Of a DNA stretch of 64,000 nucleotides, positions 27,863-58,800 are shown one piece after another. The stretch comes from a bacterium (lineage in GTDB: Bacteria > Auribacterota > UBA3054 > JAPLST01): contig JAOACZ010000146.1 of assembly GCA_026417575.1 (NCBI GenBank), positions 24,678 through 88,677 of the forward strand. Direction: 5' to 3'. Under the pieces are notes generated by a model that saw only the letters and a list, made by a program, of their open reading frames with translations, was not told the origin of the DNA and did no database searches. Each line of letters starts with the position of its first letter. The first letter of the stretch is position 1. A program made the translations under genes and the position numbers.

Positions 27863-28026
27863 TTCGACGGAGGGGCACCAGCCATGGTACCCGCAAGGTG
27901 CGCGAGAAAATTCGTGACCGAAACAAGGCGCGGGTTCAATCAACATTTTTTGTCAATTGCAAACGGCGGTTTGCGTCGGTTGAATTCGTGCGGAAGGGGT
28001 TCACGTGAACACGCAGTCGCCGAGGC
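27863..28026. repeat. 164-bp direct repeat, copy B
   Basis: Offset +301 from copy A. Confidence 0.9.
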
Positions 28027-46789: not shown

Positions 46790-47375
46790 GGTAATTCCTG
46801 TAACGTTCGGAGGTGAGGCAGGACGGTGCCGGGCGTATAGTTACACTATGTGCGTATTATACTAAAACTGTATCAGCGGCGCAACTTCGGGGTAGGTAGC
46901 ATGGAGCTTCGAGTATGCCACCGCCACCCGAGCGCAGAGCATGAGACACTGAGACCGCTTGACTACGTGCTCAACATGGCTGCATGACAATTAGCAGGCA
47001 TTGAAAGGCTAATGAGGGAGAAGTAGATGTTCAGCGTGTCGCAGGTGTCGCTGCGCGAGAGAGGAGTGCGAGCCACGCGCCTGCCTGCACGCGGGAAAAG
47101 GATTGCGGGAGAGAGTCATCCCGTATGCGATGTAAACTGGTCGTTTGCCAGCAACTGTGTTTGTCGTGTCCAGGAAGATTCGCAGACCCGGGAGCGCAAG
47201 GACAAGCAAGCGCCATTGCTCCGGCAACGACTCGCCACGTATTGTGGTGCCTGAAAGTAACTGGATACATGCAGTTTCGTGTGATGCGACGGGGTCGTTA
47301 ATTTTGTCCAATTTATCCATCTATGTGTCTTTTTTGACCATGGTGAGGCTCCGGAAAATATGCTACACTGGACTT

Positions 47376-50300
47376 ATGAAGACAGCTCTTTCTGTGTGCG
47401 GGCGTAGGGCACGTCACTTGACCTTCGTACGTGTAGTGGGACGTGCCTGGGTGTTGCTCTTCTTGAGAACCTTTTCTTCTGGAGCGGCGACGTATTCGTG
47501 GCAGGAGGCACACGCCGGCTACACTGCCAGTGGCGATCTGGTGTGGCAGCCGCAACCCTTTACATATCAAGCAGGCGTCTACGTACGCTACATCGACTAC
47601 GAGAATGGTAGTGACGCCAACAACGGGTACACAACGAACACACCGTGGAAGCATCATCCGTGGGATCCGGAGGCGACGCTGAACGCGGCCGCTGGCAACG
47701 GGCGCTACACCTATGTGTTCAAGCGGGGTGTTGTTTATCGCGGGCGGCTTGTTGCCAATCCTCCGGCAGGCAGTGTGGCGCAACCGATCCGTTTGACCAG
47801 TTCGCCGACGTGGGGGAGTGGCGAGGCAGCGTTGCATGCTTCTGTGCTACTCACCAACTGGCAACGAGGAGGGCACCCGCTTATGCCTCATACGGGCAAT
47901 GTCTGGTACGTTGACCTTCCCTTTGCCCCGCGCCGGCTGTGGCTAGTCGAAAGCAACGTAATCACACGGATTCCGCTGGCGCGCACGCCGAACTGGGTGG
48001 TGTCGAATCCGCATGACGTGAAAAGCGAGTGGTGGACGTGGACGAGTCCGACGATGGGCCGGACGAACATTGACGGGGTGACGTGTTTTGTGTGTGCCGA
48101 TCCTGTTCATCTGACGCAGCCGGCCTCGTACTATCAGAATGCGATTGTGTGGACGGAGTATAAGGTCGTCATGGCGACGCCGTACGCGGCGCGCGTGCGC
48201 GGATTTGACGTTGGGCAGAAAGCGCTTTGCTTTGCGGGGCTGTGGGGGGATACACACGAGCCGTGGCAACATAATCGCTATTTTCTTGAGGACAAACCAG
48301 AGTATCTCGACGCACCGGGTGAATTTTGGTTTGACAAGCAAGGCGAGGGAGGGCGGCTCTATCTGCGGCTACCAGGCGATCGTAACCCGAATGGTTTACA
48401 GATCGAAGCCGCGCGGTATTTTTGTCACATTGATGGCGGAAGCATTTCCAACCTGCACATTAGTGGGCTCACGTTTCGCTTCAACAATGCGTATTGGGAC
48501 CTTACGCAGCGTTACACCGCTGATCCGAACATCCTCAATGCCGCCATCCGTTTTCAAGGGGCGATTGATAACCTTTCGGTGCGCAATTGTCGCTTTGAGC
48601 AAGTCTCGAAAGCGGTGCGCATCAAGTCGCCAGACTATCGGCGTATCATTGACAGAATTGCCATTACGGACAATGAGATTGTGTGGACCGACCATGGCGC
48701 AATTGACGTGCAGGGGGCCAGTGCTGACACGCCGCCGTACGGAGAATTGGGGCATGTGGAGATCTTGCGCAACCGTTTGTATCAGATCGGTCTGCGCCCG
48801 TATCCCGCCGACGGTCATGGTCATGCAATTGATGTGCAGTTTCCGTTGTCGGCAGAGATCGCTGGCAACGTGCTTGACCGGATTTATGGGGCAGGTCTAT
48901 TTATTTTCGGTGGCAAGGCATCTGGTCGTTCCCGCAACCGTCCTTTCACGCGGATTCTCATCCATCACAATCGGGTGACCGATCCACTGTTGAACAACAA
49001 TGATTGGGGCGGCATTGAGACGTGGCAAGGTGGGCCGTTCTACATTTACAGCAACATCTCCGGCAATCCTGGCGGCTACTGGCACAGCTCGCACATCTGG
49101 AACATCAACAAGCCGGCCGCGGAGCGCACGTATAGCACGGCTCGGTTCGGTTTCGCCTACTATCTCGACGGGGCATTTAAAAATTACGTCTTCAACAACG
49201 TTGCATGGGGGCTGAACAACAACCTTACGAGTGCACTTTGCAATGCGGCAGCGTTTCAATCAGTGCTTAGCTTTGAGAACATTTACTTCAACAACACGAT
49301 TTACAAGTTTGGAGCGGGGTCGACGCGGCATGCGGTGCAAACCGGGCGGAATATGTATCTGGGCAATTTATGGCTGGATTTAAGCGATTGGACCTTTTAC
49401 GTGTACGATTTTCAGGACACGACAGATGCGAGCTACGATTACGATCGCTTGGCGTATGGGAACAACATTTTTTATGTACCTGCGCGGAATTTTGGCATGT
49501 TTGAGGTAGCTCGGACAACGCGTAGCACGTTTGATGCGTTTCGATCAGCCCTTGGGGCACGCCAAACGCTTGTGAGCTCGCTGGGAAAGGTGGTCACGAG
49601 TAGCCCTGTGCGCGATGCGAGCGCACATGATTTTCAGCTTGAGGCTACCTCCGCGGCGGTGGATTACGGCGTGCGTGTATTCGTACCATGGAGTCTTTCG
49701 GCCACCGTGGCTGAATGGCATTTCTGGCGCCATGCGAAGGACGCGCGGGTGATCCACGATGCGCATTGGTACATGCGTCCGTATTATGGAGAACGTGACA
49801 TGTACTATACGACGCGGCGCTGGCATTTACTAGCCCAGCACGTTAGCTCAAATGATTTTATTGAGGGGCGGCTGGAGAACTGGTGTGCTGGCGCGTTACG
49901 CTTTAATGGCGTGAATCAGTACGCCATACCGAATCCGAGTGGGACGGGTGATGAGACTTTGGTGATGAGCACGAACAACTTTATAATTGAGGCGTACTTC
50001 CGCACGGTGACGGGTCACGTAGGTGGTGTGATTCTGCAGATGCATGGCCCCGATGGGTATGCGCTGCGCTTGGATGAGCAAGGGCACATTGAGCTCGTGC
50101 TGCGGCCTGGTCAGACGAACGCATGTAGTGCGCGAAGCGCGGTGTATGTGAACGATGGGCAGTGGCATCACGTTTTGGCTGAAGTGAATCGTACCAGTTT
50201 GCAAGGGATTTCGTTGTACGTAGACGGGATGCGCGCGTCGGCGGTTTTCTCCGGGACATGGCCGGAAAGTAATGACGCTTTGACCAATGTGACGACATTC

Positions 50301-50822
50301 ACGGTGGCCGGCGGGCCTGGTACGGTTTACTTTGCTGGTGATCTGGACTTCCTGCGCGTCGCGCAGGATACCCTCGCGCAGTCACGCACGACAATCGAGG
50401 AGTTGTATGAGTGGCAGTTTAACGGGCCATTTCTGCGTGACTTCCGCGGCCGCCCGGCGCACGGTCGTCGTGATGCCGGTGCATTTGAGTATGTACCTGC
50501 GGGGCAAGAAGAGCTTCCGCAGATTTTGTTGCAGCCATGCGACGTGACCGTGGATGAAGGTTTTCGTGCGAGTTTCTCAGTACTTGCAGACCGCGCAACA
50601 CAGTATCAGTGGCGCAAGGATGGCACGGTACTCGCTGGGGCGACGAACAGCCGGTATGTGATCGAGAGTGTGAACGCGGCTCACGTTGGCAGCTATGACG
50701 TCATCGTGAGTAATAGCGTCGGCGGCAGTGTTAGCCGCACCGCGCGCCTGATGACGATTCCCGAACCTGCCGGGGTGCTGATCGTCGCTGTGGTTTGGCT
50801 GCTGGCTCGCCGTCGACGCTGA
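47376..50822 (+). CDS. secreted right-handed beta-helix (polysaccharide lyase-like) protein with LamG-like and Ig-like domains and PEP-CTERM tail
   Basis: VRYIDYENGSDANNGYTTNTPWKHHPW; SISNLHISGLTFRFNN...LSVRNCRFEQVSKAVRI...ITDNEIVW; LamG-like NNFIIEAYFRTVTGHVGGVILQM..; Ig-like QYQWRKDGTVLAGATNSRYVIESVNAAHVGSYDVIVSN; IPEPAGVLIVAVVWLLARRRR. Start 47376 chosen over track 47145. Confidence 0.85.
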   Translation: MKTALSVCGRRARHLTFVRVVGRAWVLLFLRTFSSGAATYSWQEAHAGYTASGDLVWQPQPFTYQAGVYVRYIDYENGSDANNGYTTNTPWKHHPWDPEATLNAAAGNGRYTYVFKRGVVYRGRLVANPPAGSVAQPIRLTSSPTWGSGEAALHASVLLTNWQRGGHPLMPHTGNVWYVDLPFAPRRLWLVESNVITRIPLARTPNWVVSNPHDVKSEWWTWTSPTMGRTNIDGVTCFVCADPVHLTQPASYYQNAIVWTEYKVVMATPYAARVRGFDVGQKALCFAGLWGDTHEPWQHNRYFLEDKPEYLDAPGEFWFDKQGEGGRLYLRLPGDRNPNGLQIEAARYFCHIDGGSISNLHISGLTFRFNNAYWDLTQRYTADPNILNAAIRFQGAIDNLSVRNCRFEQVSKAVRIKSPDYRRIIDRIAITDNEIVWTDHGAIDVQGASADTPPYGELGHVEILRNRLYQIGLRPYPADGHGHAIDVQFPLSAEIAGNVLDRIYGAGLFIFGGKASGRSRNRPFTRILIHHNRVTDPLLNNNDWGGIETWQGGPFYIYSNISGNPGGYWHSSHIWNINKPAAERTYSTARFGFAYYLDGAFKNYVFNNVAWGLNNNLTSALCNAAAFQSVLSFENIYFNNTIYKFGAGSTRHAVQTGRNMYLGNLWLDLSDWTFYVYDFQDTTDASYDYDRLAYGNNIFYVPARNFGMFEVARTTRSTFDAFRSALGARQTLVSSLGKVVTSSPVRDASAHDFQLEATSAAVDYGVRVFVPWSLSATVAEWHFWRHAKDARVIHDAHWYMRPYYGERDMYYTTRRWHLLAQHVSSNDFIEGRLENWCAGALRFNGVNQYAIPNPSGTGDETLVMSTNNFIIEAYFRTVTGHVGGVILQMHGPDGYALRLDEQGHIELVLRPGQTNACSARSAVYVNDGQWHHVLAEVNRTSLQGISLYVDGMRASAVFSGTWPESNDALTNVTTFTVAGGPGTVYFAGDLDFLRVAQDTLAQSRTTIEELYEWQFNGPFLRDFRGRPAHGRRDAGAFEYVPAGQEELPQILLQPCDVTVDEGFRASFSVLADRATQYQWRKDGTVLAGATNSRYVIESVNAAHVGSYDVIVSNSVGGSVSRTARLMTIPEPAGVLIVAVVWLLARRRR

Positions 50823-51615: not shown

Positions 51616-52638
51616 TTATTTCGCGTAGCGCCTGGCCATTTCTTCACAAGTGATGCACTTAATTTTCGGGGCATTCCCTGCTTGCCCAAAGGCGATCATG
51701 CGTTCCTTGCAGACTTGTTTCATCATTTCGCGTGCGGGCTTCAAGTAATCGCGCGGATCAAACTTATCCGGCTGTTCGGCGAAAACTTTACGAATTGCGG
51801 CGGTGATGGCCATGCGGTTGTCCGTGTCCACATTGATTTTGCGGACGCCGTGCTTGATGCCACGCTGGATTTCCTCGATCGGTACGCCGAAAGTCTGCTT
51901 CATCTTGCCGCCATACTTGTTGATCAAATCCTGGAGCTCCTGCGGGACACTTGAGGAGCCGTGCATGACCAGGTGGGTGTTGGGCAATTTCTTGTGAATC
52001 TTCTCGATTGTCTCCATGGAGAGCACATCGCCGGTCGGCCTGCGGGTAAACTTGTACGCGCCGTGGCTGGTGCCAATGGCGACAGCAAGGGCATCGACGC
52101 CGGTGGCGGCGACAAATTCTACGGCCTGGTCCGGGTCGGTGAGATGTTTTTTTGCTTCTTCGCCGGTCAGCCCGGCGCCATGGCCGTCTTCGATGCCTCC
52201 GAGGCAGCCCAGTTCGCCTTCGACACTGACGCCTACCATATGGGCCACATCCACCACCATCTTCGTCACGCGCACGTTGTAGTCAAAGGGGGCAGGGGTT
52301 TTTGCATCTTCGAGGAGCGAACCATCCATCATCACGCTGGTAAAGCCTTGACGGATAGCACTGAAACAGGTTGCCGGGCTATTACCGTGATCTTGATGCA
52401 TTGCAACAGGGATTTCGGGATAGAGCTCCACAGCGGCCAGCATAAGATGGCGGAGGAACGCATCGTTGGTGTATTGCCGCGCGCCCCGTGAGGCTTGAAT
52501 AATGACGGGGCTTTCCGTCTCGCGTGCGGCTTCCATAATTGCTTGGATCTGTTCCATGTTGTTGACGTTCAACGCGGCGATGCCGTAATTGTTTTCCGCT
52601 GCGTGGTCAAGCAAAATGCGCATCGGCACAAGTGGCAT
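51616..52638 (-). CDS. fba: class II fructose-bisphosphate aldolase
   Basis: [86 protein letters not shown] ribosome-binding site. Confidence 0.96.
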
Positions 52639-52997
52639 GGGGTACTCCTTGGGTAGCGTGTTACAGTGTTGCTCTACGATCGTAGGTAGTATAGCAAAAG
52701 AGAGACAAAAACGCTACCACAAGGCAAAGATGGGGCAGTGAGGGTGGGACAAGGCTGCTGCGAGTTCCTTCGTTTTCCACGCCGGTTGCTTGCGGCGGAC
52801 GGTGCTGAACTTGTCGCATGAGCATACCGACAGCAGAGATTAGGTTGCGCATGCGGGGTCGACGGCAGTGTGTGCGGGAACCTAGAGAGGAGTTGTATCC
52901 CGTGAGGGGTGGCTGGTGGAGATGAAATAAGAAGCGACAGGCGTGTGATTGGTTTGAGAGAGGGCGCTCGATGCTTGAATTCGCGGTGAAAATAACC

Positions 52998-53003
52998 TAT
53001 AAT
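52998..53003 (+). promoter_or_regulatory. -10 box of promoter TTGAAT(52975)-N17-TATAAT upstream of the CarB-like gene
   Basis: Direct sequence match; argues the true start is ATG 53046 (MAGQRILVLGSG), not the track start 52971. Confidence 0.75.
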
Positions 53004-53045
53004 CGCGTAGCGGTTGTTATTTTGCGGTTTACACACACCCAGACA

Positions 53046-56000
53046 ATGGCGGGGCAGCGCATTTTGGTGTTGGGATCAGGCCCGACGGGCGTAGGTCAAG
53101 GAGCAGAGTACATGGGCGCCGTGGCCGCGGCATGTCGTACGCTACGTTTCCTCGGCCATCATGTGATTTTGTTGGAAAGTCAGACGTGCGCGCTGGCGAG
53201 CGCGCCGGAGGGGGCACACACCGTGTACTTTGAACCGCTTAATCGTGAAAGCATTGAGAAAGTGCTCAGAGCGGAGCGTCCGCATAGTTTGCTGGCCACA
53301 GTGGGCGGGCGAGCAGGGCTGCATACTATGTTGCTGTTACAGCGTTTATACAGCAACAGTCCGCGTTGTGCGGCGCTGGGGACGTCGTTCGAAGTACTGG
53401 AGACGGCGTTACATCCAGAACATGTGGTGCGGGCGGGGATGGCGCTGGGCATTCGCGTACCACAAGTGTTCATTGTGAACAAGAAGAAGCAGGCGGAAGA
53501 GCTGGGGCGCCAGCTGGGGTTTCCAGTCGTGGTTCGGCCGATGTGGGCGGCGGGGAGCTTAGGGACAGCGATTACGTATAACACGCAGGAGTTAGACCGA
53601 GCCATTGATGTAGCTCTTGCAGTGAGCCCAGCCGGGCAGGCGGTGATCGAGAAATCGCTGGCGGGGCAGCAGCGGACGGCGTGGGTTGTGGCGCGCGACA
53701 TGCGCGGTGCTACGCGTGTGATCGGCGGAGTGGAGTATCTCGAGCCGCTGGGCATTTATTCGGGAGATAGTCCCGCGGTGACGCCTGTACAAAGTTTTTC
53801 TGTGGCCGACAGTGTTGCGGTGCAAGAAGTGGTTCAACACGTCGTGGAACGCCTGCGGTTAACAGGTGTGAGTACAGTGCATCTCGCGCATGGGGTGACG
53901 CCGCGGGAGGTTGTGTTGCTATCTGTGAGTCCGTATATGACTTCGGTGGCGTTATGGTGTGGGCGGGCACAGGCCGTGCCGGTCGTGGAGTGGCACGTGA
54001 GTCTGAACGCAGGGGTACCGTTGGGGGAGTTGGAACGCGCGGCACCATGCGACGATTTGTTTGGTGAGGAGAGCCGGGCGAAGCGGGTATGGTGTCGCTG
54101 GCCAGTGTTCCCGGGGAGGCGTTTAATGGGTGTGCGTGAGCAGCTGACGACGTATGCAAAGTCGGTAGGAAGTGTGACGGGTGTGGGTGAGAATTTTCTC
54201 AGCGCGCTGCAACGAGCGCTTCGCGCGGCCGCGCTACCGGTGCTTGGTCCGGGATTTGTAGTGCCGAAATGGGCTGTGGGATGGACGGAAGAGGACGTGC
54301 GGGCAGAGGTGAGCGTGGCTACGCCACTCCGCCTGTGGCATATCTACCACGCGCTGCACCTAGGTTTTAGTATTGAGGAACTTGCGCAACTGACACGCTG
54401 GGCACCGTGGGTGCTTGAACAGGTGACACGCTTACATGATTTGGAGCGGCGCTGGAGCGAGGTACAGCCACGCGCATTCGTCACAACGCAGGGAGAGAGT
54501 AACGAGCTGCTGCGAGAGGCGCTGGCAATGGGATGCAGCGAGAGCCAGTTAGCGGACGCTCTTGGGATGGACACGGAACGTTTTCGCGAACGCTGCGCAC
54601 GGCGCGGGTTTCACAGAGTACCCGTGGTTGTTACTGATGACGGGCAGGGTGGAACCCAGCACCTCATTTTGGAGAGCTACGGCGGGGCACGGCCGCGGCC
54701 AGCAGAGGGTGAGGGCAATGTAATCGTACTCGGGGCGAATGCCTCGCTTCTGCAAGGCTCGCTCGAATACGAGTATTTGGCGGCGCGGGTTATCGCCGCG
54801 GTGAATGCGGCGGGTCATAAGTGCATCCTGATCTCGCCGACGCCGTTACACGCCGCTGCCGCGTTGGGTCTGCCCGTCCGCCACTATCTTGAACCGGCAC
54901 ACGCTGCGCTCACAGAGATTGTTGCAGCGGAACAGCCCGCTGGTGTTATTCTACAGTGTAGTGAACGAGTTCCAACCGAAGTACTCCAGCAGGTACGGGC
55001 GTTGGAGCTGCCCGTGTGGGGAACAAGTGCGCACAGTTTGGAACGCTTGGCGACGCGTGACCGCTTCCATATGCTTTTGCAGAAACTGGACATTCGGCAA
55101 CCGTCGCACTCGCTGGCACATAGTGCGCAGCAGGCATATACGTTGGCTGAGGATGTGGGGTACCCGGTGATTGTGCATCCGGCACATCCCCACGATCTTC
55201 CTCGGGTGACGATTTGGTACGATCGGCAGGACGCACGGCACTTTTTTGAGCAGGCCACGCATTTGGGTGAAGTGTACCCACTTTCGATTGAGAAGTTCTT
55301 GGAAGAGGCACGCGAGTTTCACGTGGATGCCTTGGCAGATGGCGAGGAAGGTGTGGTAGTAGGAATCCATGAGCATGTCGAAGAGGCAGGGATTCATTCA
55401 GCGGATAGTGCGGCGGTGTGGCCGGCGCACAGCTTAGCAGACGAGCTAGTGCGCGAACTACGCCTGGTGGTACAGAAATTAGTGCAGGAGTTACGTCTGT
55501 GTGGTTTTTTTGGCGTCAAATGTGCGTTGGCGCAAGACAAGCTGTATGTGTTGGATGTACTTCCTCACGCGGCGCGAAGTGTGGCCCTGCTCGATTTAGT
55601 GTATGGCGGGCGCTTGGTGCCGGCAGGGGTGCACGCGTTGTTAGGCGGGCAGCTACGCGAGAAAGGTGTGCATGAGCTTGTGGGCGATTTTCTCGCCGTG
55701 CGAGCCCCTGTTTTTCCGTTTCGGCATTTCCCGGCGAGTGACACTGCACTCGGGCCGGAACATTGTGCTGTGGGCCAGGCACTTGGGATTGATCGGTCTT
55801 TCGGCATTGCATACGCCAAGGCACTCACTGCAGCAGGGAATCGGCTGCCGAGTAAAGGGAAAGCGTTGCTCAGCGTGGCCGACCGAGACAAGCCTGAGAT
55901 TATTGCCGTGGCAAAAAAATTACGCGCGTTGGGCTTCAACTTGTTGGCTACAGCAGGGACGGCCGCGCTCCTCCGCGCTAACGGCATTCCTGCTGAGCAT

Positions 56001-56303
56001 GTGTTAAAGGTGCACGAAGGGCGCCCCAACGTCATTGACCATATCATTGATGGTGAAGTCCAGCTAATTATCAACACGCCGGGCGGAAAAGCGAACCGCA
56101 TTGCAGAAGCGCATTTGCGCCACGAGGCGGTGGATCGAGGCATCCTCGTCCTCACAACACTTGCCGGAGCCCGCGCCGCCGTGACCGGTATCGAAGCATT
56201 TATGCGGCATGGTTTCGATGTCACCCCGCATGCCTGCTACCTGCAGACCCTGCGTCAGCAGCCTGAATTAACATTAGACACCCAGCCGACCATGGAGCTA
56301 TAA
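53046..56303 (+). CDS. divergent carbamoyl-phosphate synthase large subunit-like protein (CarB architecture, degenerate ATP-grasp motifs, intact-looking MGS domain)
   Basis: RILVLGSGPTGVGQGAEY (CarB N-terminus-like), VVVRPMWAAGSLGTAITYN, GIYSGDSPAVTPVQS, GFSIEELAQLTRWAPWVLEQVTRL, EEAGIHSADSAAVWPAHSL, C-terminal LGFNLLATAGTAALLRANGIPAEHVLKVHEGRPNVIDHIIDGEVQLIINTPGGKANRIAEAHLRHEAVDRGILVLTTLAGARAAVTGIEAF. Confidence 0.88.
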   Translation: MAGQRILVLGSGPTGVGQGAEYMGAVAAACRTLRFLGHHVILLESQTCALASAPEGAHTVYFEPLNRESIEKVLRAERPHSLLATVGGRAGLHTMLLLQRLYSNSPRCAALGTSFEVLETALHPEHVVRAGMALGIRVPQVFIVNKKKQAEELGRQLGFPVVVRPMWAAGSLGTAITYNTQELDRAIDVALAVSPAGQAVIEKSLAGQQRTAWVVARDMRGATRVIGGVEYLEPLGIYSGDSPAVTPVQSFSVADSVAVQEVVQHVVERLRLTGVSTVHLAHGVTPREVVLLSVSPYMTSVALWCGRAQAVPVVEWHVSLNAGVPLGELERAAPCDDLFGEESRAKRVWCRWPVFPGRRLMGVREQLTTYAKSVGSVTGVGENFLSALQRALRAAALPVLGPGFVVPKWAVGWTEEDVRAEVSVATPLRLWHIYHALHLGFSIEELAQLTRWAPWVLEQVTRLHDLERRWSEVQPRAFVTTQGESNELLREALAMGCSESQLADALGMDTERFRERCARRGFHRVPVVVTDDGQGGTQHLILESYGGARPRPAEGEGNVIVLGANASLLQGSLEYEYLAARVIAAVNAAGHKCILISPTPLHAAAALGLPVRHYLEPAHAALTEIVAAEQPAGVILQCSERVPTEVLQQVRALELPVWGTSAHSLERLATRDRFHMLLQKLDIRQPSHSLAHSAQQAYTLAEDVGYPVIVHPAHPHDLPRVTIWYDRQDARHFFEQATHLGEVYPLSIEKFLEEAREFHVDALADGEEGVVVGIHEHVEEAGIHSADSAAVWPAHSLADELVRELRLVVQKLVQELRLCGFFGVKCALAQDKLYVLDVLPHAARSVALLDLVYGGRLVPAGVHALLGGQLREKGVHELVGDFLAVRAPVFPFRHFPASDTALGPEHCAVGQALGIDRSFGIAYAKALTAAGNRLPSKGKALLSVADRDKPEIIAVAKKLRALGFNLLATAGTAALLRANGIPAEHVLKVHEGRPNVIDHIIDGEVQLIINTPGGKANRIAEAHLRHEAVDRGILVLTTLAGARAAVTGIEAFMRHGFDVTPHACYLQTLRQQPELTLDTQPTMEL

Positions 56304-56315
56304 TTACGCGTTGCC

Positions 56316-56978
56316 ATGGACCACATCCAACTGCTCCAGACCGATCCAGCATACCCCGCTCGACTTCACGCGCTCCTTGGGCCTGACGCGCCACCTCAAC
56401 TGGGACTTGCAGGGAATCGCGCGTTACTGCAAGAGCGCACGCTGTCGCTATTTTGTTCCATCCGCTGTCCAGGGGCAATGATTTTGCAAACCTATCAGCT
56501 TATGCGCACGTTACGCCGGTGCCGCCTCGCGGTCATCAGTGGATTTCACTCGCCAATGGAGCGCGAGTGTTTACGCACTCTGGCAAATGGCACGGCAGGT
56601 ATTGTGTGGTGCCTGGCAAAGTCCCTTGCGGCGTTTCGATTGTCAGGGGAATGGCAGCCATTATTTGAGAGTGGGCGATTGCTCCTTGTGGCACCCTTCC
56701 CGCCGCACGTCACGCGCATCACAAAGGCAACGGCGCTGTTCCGTAATCGTGTAGCGGCTGCCCTCGCAGATGATGCTTTCTTGCCCTACGCTGCGGCCGG
56801 CGGCCGCACGGAAAAGTTCTGTCAGGAGTTGCTGGCGTGGGACAAAACGGTCTTCACGCTCGCTGCACCAGAGAACGCAGGGATTGTTGAACGTGGTGCC
56901 CACGCACTTAGCTTAAGTGATGTGACATCATTTTGGCCGACCCACGAGGTGCCGGTGACGGGGGATACGTTGCTATGA
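56316..56978 (+). CDS. DprA/SLOG-like DNA-processing family protein (short form)
   Basis: LSLFCSIRCPGAMILQTYQLMRTL, VISGFHSPMERECLRTL, SGRLLLVAPFPP...TKATALFRNRVAAALADDAFLPYAAAGGRTEKFCQELL. Confidence 0.68.
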   Translation: MDHIQLLQTDPAYPARLHALLGPDAPPQLGLAGNRALLQERTLSLFCSIRCPGAMILQTYQLMRTLRRCRLAVISGFHSPMERECLRTLANGTAGIVWCLAKSLAAFRLSGEWQPLFESGRLLLVAPFPPHVTRITKATALFRNRVAAALADDAFLPYAAAGGRTEKFCQELLAWDKTVFTLAAPENAGIVERGAHALSLSDVTSFWPTHEVPVTGDTLL

Positions 56979-57172
56979 AAAGATGCGTAAGTCGCATGGC
57001 GATGAACGCCATTTTGCTTGGGCTGGTAATGGGTGGGATTGTCGGAGTGGCGTTTTGGCTGCTGACTGACCGACCGGTAGCGTCGATGCTGTTTGGGCTG
57101 GTGCCGCTGTGTCTATCACTGATTCTCGTGAGAAATCACTTTTGGGAACCGTACCCACCGGAAGATGAGTAG
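56975..57172 (+). CDS. small two-TM hypothetical protein
   Basis: MKRCVSRMAMNAILLGLVMGGIVGVAFWLLTDRPVASMLFGLVPLCLSLILVRNHFWEPYPPEDE; ATGA overlap with the upstream gene. Confidence 0.7.
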   Translation: MKRCVSRMAMNAILLGLVMGGIVGVAFWLLTDRPVASMLFGLVPLCLSLILVRNHFWEPYPPEDE

Positions 57173-57231
57173 TGCGTGTGGCGGCTTTGCGAGCTGCATG
57201 GTGCGTGAGCACGCGCGGAACTAAGGCAACC

Positions 57232-58800
57232 TTAGGGCCCGCTGCCGCGATGCAAATCATGGTTCTTGCACCAGGCGCACAAGTCGCGCCATACGTGGCC
57301 ACGGGCGGCGGGCAGTTGGTCGGCGGCAGCCGGGCCCCACGTGCCCGCCGGATAGGTGCTTAATGGCACGCCATCACCCCGCGCCCACGCCTCTACCACT
57401 GGGGCAAGGAGCGCCCAACTTTTTTCAATGATGTCGTCGCGCAAAAACAGCGTGCGGTCCCCACACATACAGTCGAGCAGCAACCGTTCATACGCCTCGG
57501 GTGGGTCGGTGTGAAAAGCCTCGCGGTAGGAGACATCCAAATTCAAATCGCACATGCAGAGTTTTGGGCCGGGCTTTTTGGCTTGGATCATCAAGGCCAG
57601 ACCTTCATCAGGTTGAATATTAAAGACAAGCAGATTAGGCGTGAGGTCGCGCGGGGTGAGGGGATGAAAGATACTGCGCGGGACGGGCTTAAAGAAAACA
57701 GCAATTTCGGACTTACGGCAGCGCAAGCGTTTGCCACTGCGCAGATAGAACGGCACGCCATGCCAGCGCGGTGTGTTAATCTCGCAACAGGCGGCCACGT
57801 AGGTTTCGGTGCTCGAGTCGGGCACAACGCCAGGTTCTTCCCGGTAACCAGGCACCATGGTGCCGCCGAGTTCACCGCGCACATACTGTGCCCGCACAAC
57901 CTGCTCAGGCAGCAGCTGCACGGCGTCCAAGACGCGTGCCTTCTCATTGTGCACAGCGTGAGCGTCGAAGGTAGCGGGCATCTCCATCGCAACCAGGGTC
58001 AACAACTGGAGCACATGATTTTGGATCATATCGCGCAGGAGGCCAGTCTGATCAAAATACCCAGCACGCTCGCCCACACCTAGCTGTTCCGCCACCGTAA
58101 TTTGGACTTGCTCAATGTACTGCCCGTTCCAGATCGGTTCGAATACGAGATTGGCGAAGCGGAAGATGAGGATGTTTTGAACCGTCTCCTTGCCGAGATA
58201 ATGGTCTACGCGGTAAATTTGATCTTCGCGGACCACGCCGCGTAACGTGCGTGTCAATGCCTTGGCGCTAGCGAGATCGTGTCCGTGCGGTTTTTCTACC
58301 GCGAGACGGACCCACCCGGAACTATGTGTCAGGCCTGCAGCGCCCAGTCTACGCACGATAGTGCCATAGAGGGACGGAGGAACAGAAAGGTAGAACAAGC
58401 GATTCCCTGCTGTGTCATGAGCCACGTCCAGTTCTGCTAGGCGGCGGGCCAGGACCTCGTAGGTGGAGGGATCATCATAGGTGCCATTCACGTAGGCGCA
58501 CCGGTGAAGAAAGGCCGAAAGAACGTCGCGCGGGAGATTGGGATGCGCCGCAGTGACCGCGGTTTGAACCAGGGAACGAAAGGCGTCACCCGTGAACGCG
58601 GTCCGCCCGCATCCGACGAGGTACCAGCGCTGCGGGAGCAGATTGCGGGCGGCAAGGGAGGCAAGGGCGGGAAATAATTTTCGCCGCGCGAGATCGCCGG
58701 AGGCGCCGAAGATGATCACCCCGCAGGCACCTGGTCGCGTCTCGAGACACAGCCGCTCACGTACCGTAATCGTTGCCTGCGAGGGGATCATGGCAGGCAT
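57232..58800 (-). CDS. zwf: glucose-6-phosphate 1-dehydrogenase
   Basis: [62 protein letters not shown]. Confidence 0.97.

Follow-up and report, generated by a model that had tools for sequence, protein, structure and literature searches.

A CarB paralogue with degenerate ATP-grasp centres and a retained MGS domain is a candidate pseudoenzyme in one order of uncultured bacteria

In CPSase, a textbook example of allostery, an effector domain regulates two ATP sites far away from it. Paralogues that have become pseudoenzymes generally keep the fold and the ligand domain, have lost catalysis and exist alongside the active enzyme. In E. coli, CPSase dimers form through a surface of the allosteric domain, T977 and K993 are crucial for UMP, and the oligomerisation domain is one of the two regions that contact CarA (PMC6245113). 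Human CPS1 is regulated via its C-terminal domain (PMC4655335). Here we describe, in a window of 64,000 nucleotides (the whole stretch of bacterial DNA analysed), the gene for a protein that resembles CarB (PRK05294, TIGR01369; E. coli, PDB 1bxr/1a9x) in domain order, predicted fold, MGS pocket residues and length, but that differs from it in the loss of the ATP-grasp metal and phosphate ligands in all orthologs, in an added C-terminal tail and in an identity of about 29%. With human CPS1 (PDB 5dou, 6w2j) it shares the predicted fold, whereas CPS1 has both active phosphorylation sites and a fused glutaminase-like half. Its likeness to pseudoenzyme paralogues lies in the loss of catalytic residues under purifying selection and in the presence of a canonical CarB, or a fragment of one, in six of the seven genomes that carry it. 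A search of the open-access full-text literature found no CarB-derived pseudoenzyme. The protein would extend the known pseudoenzymes by a large ATP-grasp protein with two centres. A conserved protein with effector domain and scaffold but neither ATP site would also amount to a natural experiment on the capabilities of these parts alone.

The features of the locus are given in Table 1. A Pfam search found CPSase_L_D1, CPSase_L_D2 and ATP-grasp in each half, the oligomerisation domain and MGS, and E. coli CarB was the top PDB sequence match, covering residues 5-1049. The complete CarB domain order is present, as the initial annotation had proposed, and the motifs that it quoted lie where it placed them in a frame open for 1,085 codons. 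An in-frame ATG at 52971 lies 25 codons upstream of 53046, but the alignment of the orthologs favours 53046 (MxxQRI.V.G, n=6). The NCBIfam score is above the cut-off for PRK05294 (633.2 versus 599), which means that automatic annotation would name the gene carB, and below that for TIGR01369 (570.6 versus 1027). An Rfam search of 52600-57300 gave no match.

Table 1. Positions in the window of the CarB paralogue, its domains and altered residues, and the neighbouring gene
Feature	Position	Strand	Details
Degenerate CarB paralogue gene	53046..56303	+	1,085 aa plus stop; six full-length orthologs align from this start
N-half pre-ATP-grasp domain	53046..53399	+	aa 1-118, boundary approximate; Pfam CPSase_L_D1 4-118
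N-half (carboxyphosphate-type) ATP-grasp domain, metal and phosphate ligands gone	53400..54245	+	aa 119-400
P124 replacing E. coli R129	53415..53417	+	Pro in 7/7 orthologs
S293 and S295 replacing metal ligands E299 and N301	53922..53930	+	Ser; Ser/Ala/Thr in orthologs
Oligomerisation-type domain, fast diverging	54246..54665	+	aa 401-540; Pfam CPSase_L_D3 421-504; 26% identity between ortholog groups
C-half pre-ATP-grasp domain, fast diverging	54666..55025	+	aa 541-660; 29% identity between ortholog groups
C-half (carbamate-type) ATP-grasp domain, altered centre	55026..55835	+	aa 661-930
H711 replacing R715	55176..55178	+	His in 7/7
K825 replacing metal ligand Q829	55518..55520	+	Lys in 7/7
D837 and L839 replacing metal ligands E841 and N843	55554..55562	+	Asp in 7/7; Leu/Val/Phe
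MGS (allosteric) domain	55836..56243	+	aa 931-1066; Pfam MGS 951-1037; pocket residues K949, T969, T972, K988, N1010 kept
C-terminal tail, absent from canonical CarB	56244..56300	+	tandem QxxLxL-like: QPELTL 56259-56276, QPTMEL 56283-56300
Downstream gene, DprA-like Rossmann domain	56316..56978	+	220 aa; PF02481 31 bits; no second Pfam domain

Residues were mapped in an alignment of the seven paralogues to canonical CarBs, namely that of E. coli and 14 others (13 full-length, 1 fragment); ligands are numbered as in the E. coli CPS structures. All seven paralogues have replaced, in the N-half, R129 by Pro, E215 by Arg or Ser, E299 by Ser and N301 by Ser, Ala or Thr, and in the C-half, R715 by His, Q829 by Lys, E841 by Asp and N843 by Leu, Val or Phe; they have also lost R845. 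The canonical CarBs in the alignment retain these residues. Both centres are therefore degenerate by alignment, in agreement with the initial annotation, and the aligned columns of the window protein (compared with the E. coli protein and 13 other full-length CarBs) hold no Glu or Asn that could compensate. The window protein has also lost Q285 and R303 of the N-half, yet Q285 is kept in six and R303 in three of the seven orthologs, and because these two positions vary, the invariant losses are the better evidence. Since seven genomes show the same losses, neither chance nor sequencing error can explain them. Each half also has an altered glycine-rich loop, the carbamate-tunnel residue G575 has become Ser, Leu, Arg or Lys, the tunnel positions A309, C232 and A251 are altered too, and E604 to Leu and T605 to His, in the C-half pre-ATP-grasp domain, are invariant among the orthologs. 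Columns invariant in canonical CarBs survive in all seven at 18 of 87 positions of the N-half ATP-grasp domain and 25 of 77 of the C-half one. CPSase catalysis has very probably been lost while the gene is kept under selection. R169, R675, E761, E783 and D791 are retained in all seven paralogues, so that binding of a nucleotide or metabolite in either half, or some other chemistry, is possible.

The six full-length orthologs are 53% (G001), 50% (G004) and 43% (G002, G005, G007 and G009) identical to the window protein. In a profile search the orthologs scored 1824-2067 bits and any other match at most 899. The paralogue is present in 7 of the 384 genomes searched, all of them in a single order of uncultured bacteria and spread over its families f1, f2 and f4; family f3 is without it (0/8 genomes). 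In a pattern scan across 85,462 species genomes, run with an alignment lacking the MGS motif, 12 loci were found, 6 of which carry the paralogue. Of the six other loci, five have canonical residues and one (L085) gave no long CarB match. A scan of genome contigs with a single protein as the query gave no match. The matching records in the named collection are MAGs; their names suggest an origin in Lake Pavin, Guaymas and elsewhere, and two are labelled Chlamydiota. The seven paralogues form one clade (SH-aLRT 100), and because the branching within it matches the canonical CarB tree, vertical inheritance is likely. The clade falls outside all sampled canonical CarBs; a tree grouping it with canonical CarBs of the same order could not be rejected (p-AU 0.32), and the tree cannot date the duplication, which may be ancient or may have arisen within the order. 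The stem branch was rapid, with 1.65 + 1.61 changes per column.

The four f2 genomes belong to one genus, and among them the dN/dS of the paralogue is 0.08-0.11, a rough estimate with dS >1 in five of six pairs. Such values indicate purifying selection and not decay. They are 0.04-0.07 for the MGS domain, apart from 0.13 in the closest of the six pairs, 0.02-0.09 for the C-half ATP-grasp domain and 0.06-0.30 for the oligomerisation domain; canonical CarB, compared between two of the four genomes, gave 0.025. None of the seven full-length orthologs has an internal stop. Selection had originally been deduced from the open frame, which by itself is no proof, and it is the orthologs that support it.

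AlphaFold2 predicted a confident CPS-like fold (mean pLDDT 84.6, pTM 0.88) from a 35-row alignment that included canonical CarBs, but not from the seven orthologs alone (pLDDT 58.9, pTM 0.45), so the confident fold rests mainly on homology to the canonical CarBs in the alignment. In a Foldseek comparison, the model matched E. coli CPS with a TM-score of 0.90 and human CPS1 with 0.86.

The MGS domain is the best-kept part of the protein. Between the two ortholog groups, identity is 58% for MGS, 50% and 43% for the ATP-grasp domains of the C-half and the N-half, respectively, and 26-29% for the oligomerisation domain and the pre-ATP-grasp domain of the C-half. The poor conservation of the oligomerisation domain argues against a CarA-bound complex. 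K954, T974, T977, K993 and N1015, which form the UMP/IMP pocket in E. coli, are kept in all seven paralogues, as is T1042, and 11 of the 13 canonical-invariant MGS columns survive in all of them. The retention of MGS noted at the outset is thus a property of the whole family.

Taken with the residue losses, the dN/dS values, the separate canonical CarB in six of the seven genomes and CarA in four, this retention fits the early suggestion of a pseudoenzyme or neofunctionalised CPSase under selection. Our tentative reading is that the protein is a CarB-derived pseudoenzyme working as a ligand-responsive regulator or scaffold, with partner, ligand and output all deduced. The protein would make no carbamoyl phosphate. 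Its candidate role, which we put forward with similar caution, is that of a regulator responding to a ligand via MGS, whose ligand may be a UMP/IMP-like nucleotide or a phosphorylated effector related to it, while the rest of the chain would be a scaffold that reports the bound ligand to a partner. The simplest candidate partner would be canonical CarB, through pairing of the allosteric domains. Possibly, the C-half pocket with the invariant His711, Lys825 and Asp837 holds a nucleotide without Mg2+, or another ligand.

This same pocket is the basis of a different explanation, in which the protein is a new enzyme whose C-half has a substrate or ligand unrelated to carbamoyl phosphate, with MGS as the regulator. 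We consider this somewhat unlikely. It would account for the three invariant replacements, for the retention of R675, E761, E783 and D791, and for the good conservation of the C-half ATP-grasp domain, both between ortholog groups and in dN/dS. However, the glycine loop of that half is not conserved among the orthologs and is modelled with low confidence (715-718), and the Pfam and NCBIfam searches gave no new motif matching a known enzyme.

The tail suggests another possibility. It comprises the last 19 or so residues, beyond the end of canonical CarB, and is predicted to be disordered (pLDDT <50 at 1074-1085). At least one Q-x-x-[LMF]-x-[LF] motif occurs within the last 30 residues of all seven paralogues and of none of the 35 canonical CarB rows. 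Five of the seven orthologs have two copies, for which the chance is about 1-3 in 10,000 per 30 residues, for a pattern picked after viewing the sequences; G004 and G007 have one, and the G007 sequence ends at a contig edge. Clamp-binding peptides are of the QL(S/D)LF or QLxLPL type. The motif resembles the hexapeptides that bind the beta clamp, such as QLSLPL (PMC3836487), and the DinB of this lineage has QLPLF (G000 and G001) and a C-terminal QLKFPF (G005). It is conceivable that MGS senses a nucleotide and that the tail binds the beta sliding clamp, or a pocket of some other protein, which would make the protein a sensor for DNA metabolism. Such a role is improbable, as position 2 of the motif is His, Pro, Arg or Ala and not the Leu or Phe of the described motifs, the pattern was chosen post hoc, and two orthologs have the single copy. 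In a broader version, this lineage-specific family of dead CarBs would be a regulator that responds to nucleotides, has gained a tail for docking and links nucleotide pools either to the synthesis of carbamoyl phosphate or to DNA metabolism; this also seems unlikely to us, if less so.

Could the protein still be a CPSase-like enzyme, or one that performs a partial reaction with non-canonical metal ligands? The full series of domains, the PRK05294 score, the conservative change of E841 to Asp and the retention of R169 would agree with this. We regard it as very improbable, because R129, E215, E299, N301, R715, Q829 and N843 are replaced in all seven paralogues, the tunnel residue G575 is changed, the TIGR01369 score falls far short of its cut-off and a canonical CarB is kept alongside. 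A decaying pseudogene that is open by chance, for which one could cite the fast divergence on the stem branch, is hardly credible and is refuted for the family by seven full-length orthologs without internal stops and by their low dN/dS.

The initial annotation had proposed a check for a canonical carB and carA. A separate canonical CarB is full-length in G001, G002, G004 and G005 and fragmentary in G009 and, at a contig edge, in G000; G007, which is 74% complete, showed none. CarA is present as a single copy in four of the seven genomes (G000, G001, G004 and G005); the other three (G002, G007 and G009; completeness 64-81%) yielded none. The neighbourhoods that we read have no pyrimidine or arginine gene next to the paralogue. 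The DprA-like gene lies on the same strand immediately 3' of the paralogue, with a 12-base gap in the window and of a few bases in G001. Homologs occur elsewhere in the genomes of G004 and G009 and in none of the eight f3 genomes, so that within the order the gene is confined to families with the paralogue. A link between the two genes is a lead rather than proof.

Some other observations concern CarB in the phylum and the rest of the window. G004 has a second canonical-type CarB (L039, contig C250, 2954-6292, minus strand) with one in-frame TAG between the halves. The TIGR01369 search over the 384 genomes listed high-scoring matches and does not trace further degenerate CarBs. Twelve genomes of the phylum (G020, G021, G028, G029, G035, G036 and G038-G043), several of which are >90% complete, have no CarB among the matches listed at E <= 1e-100. 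Near position 28000 of the window the GC skew flips from about -0.07 to +0.21, possibly close to a replication origin or terminus. A long open reading frame at 47145-50822 (+) ends in a C-terminus, PEPAGVLIVAVVWLLARRRR, that resembles a PEP-CTERM sorting signal.
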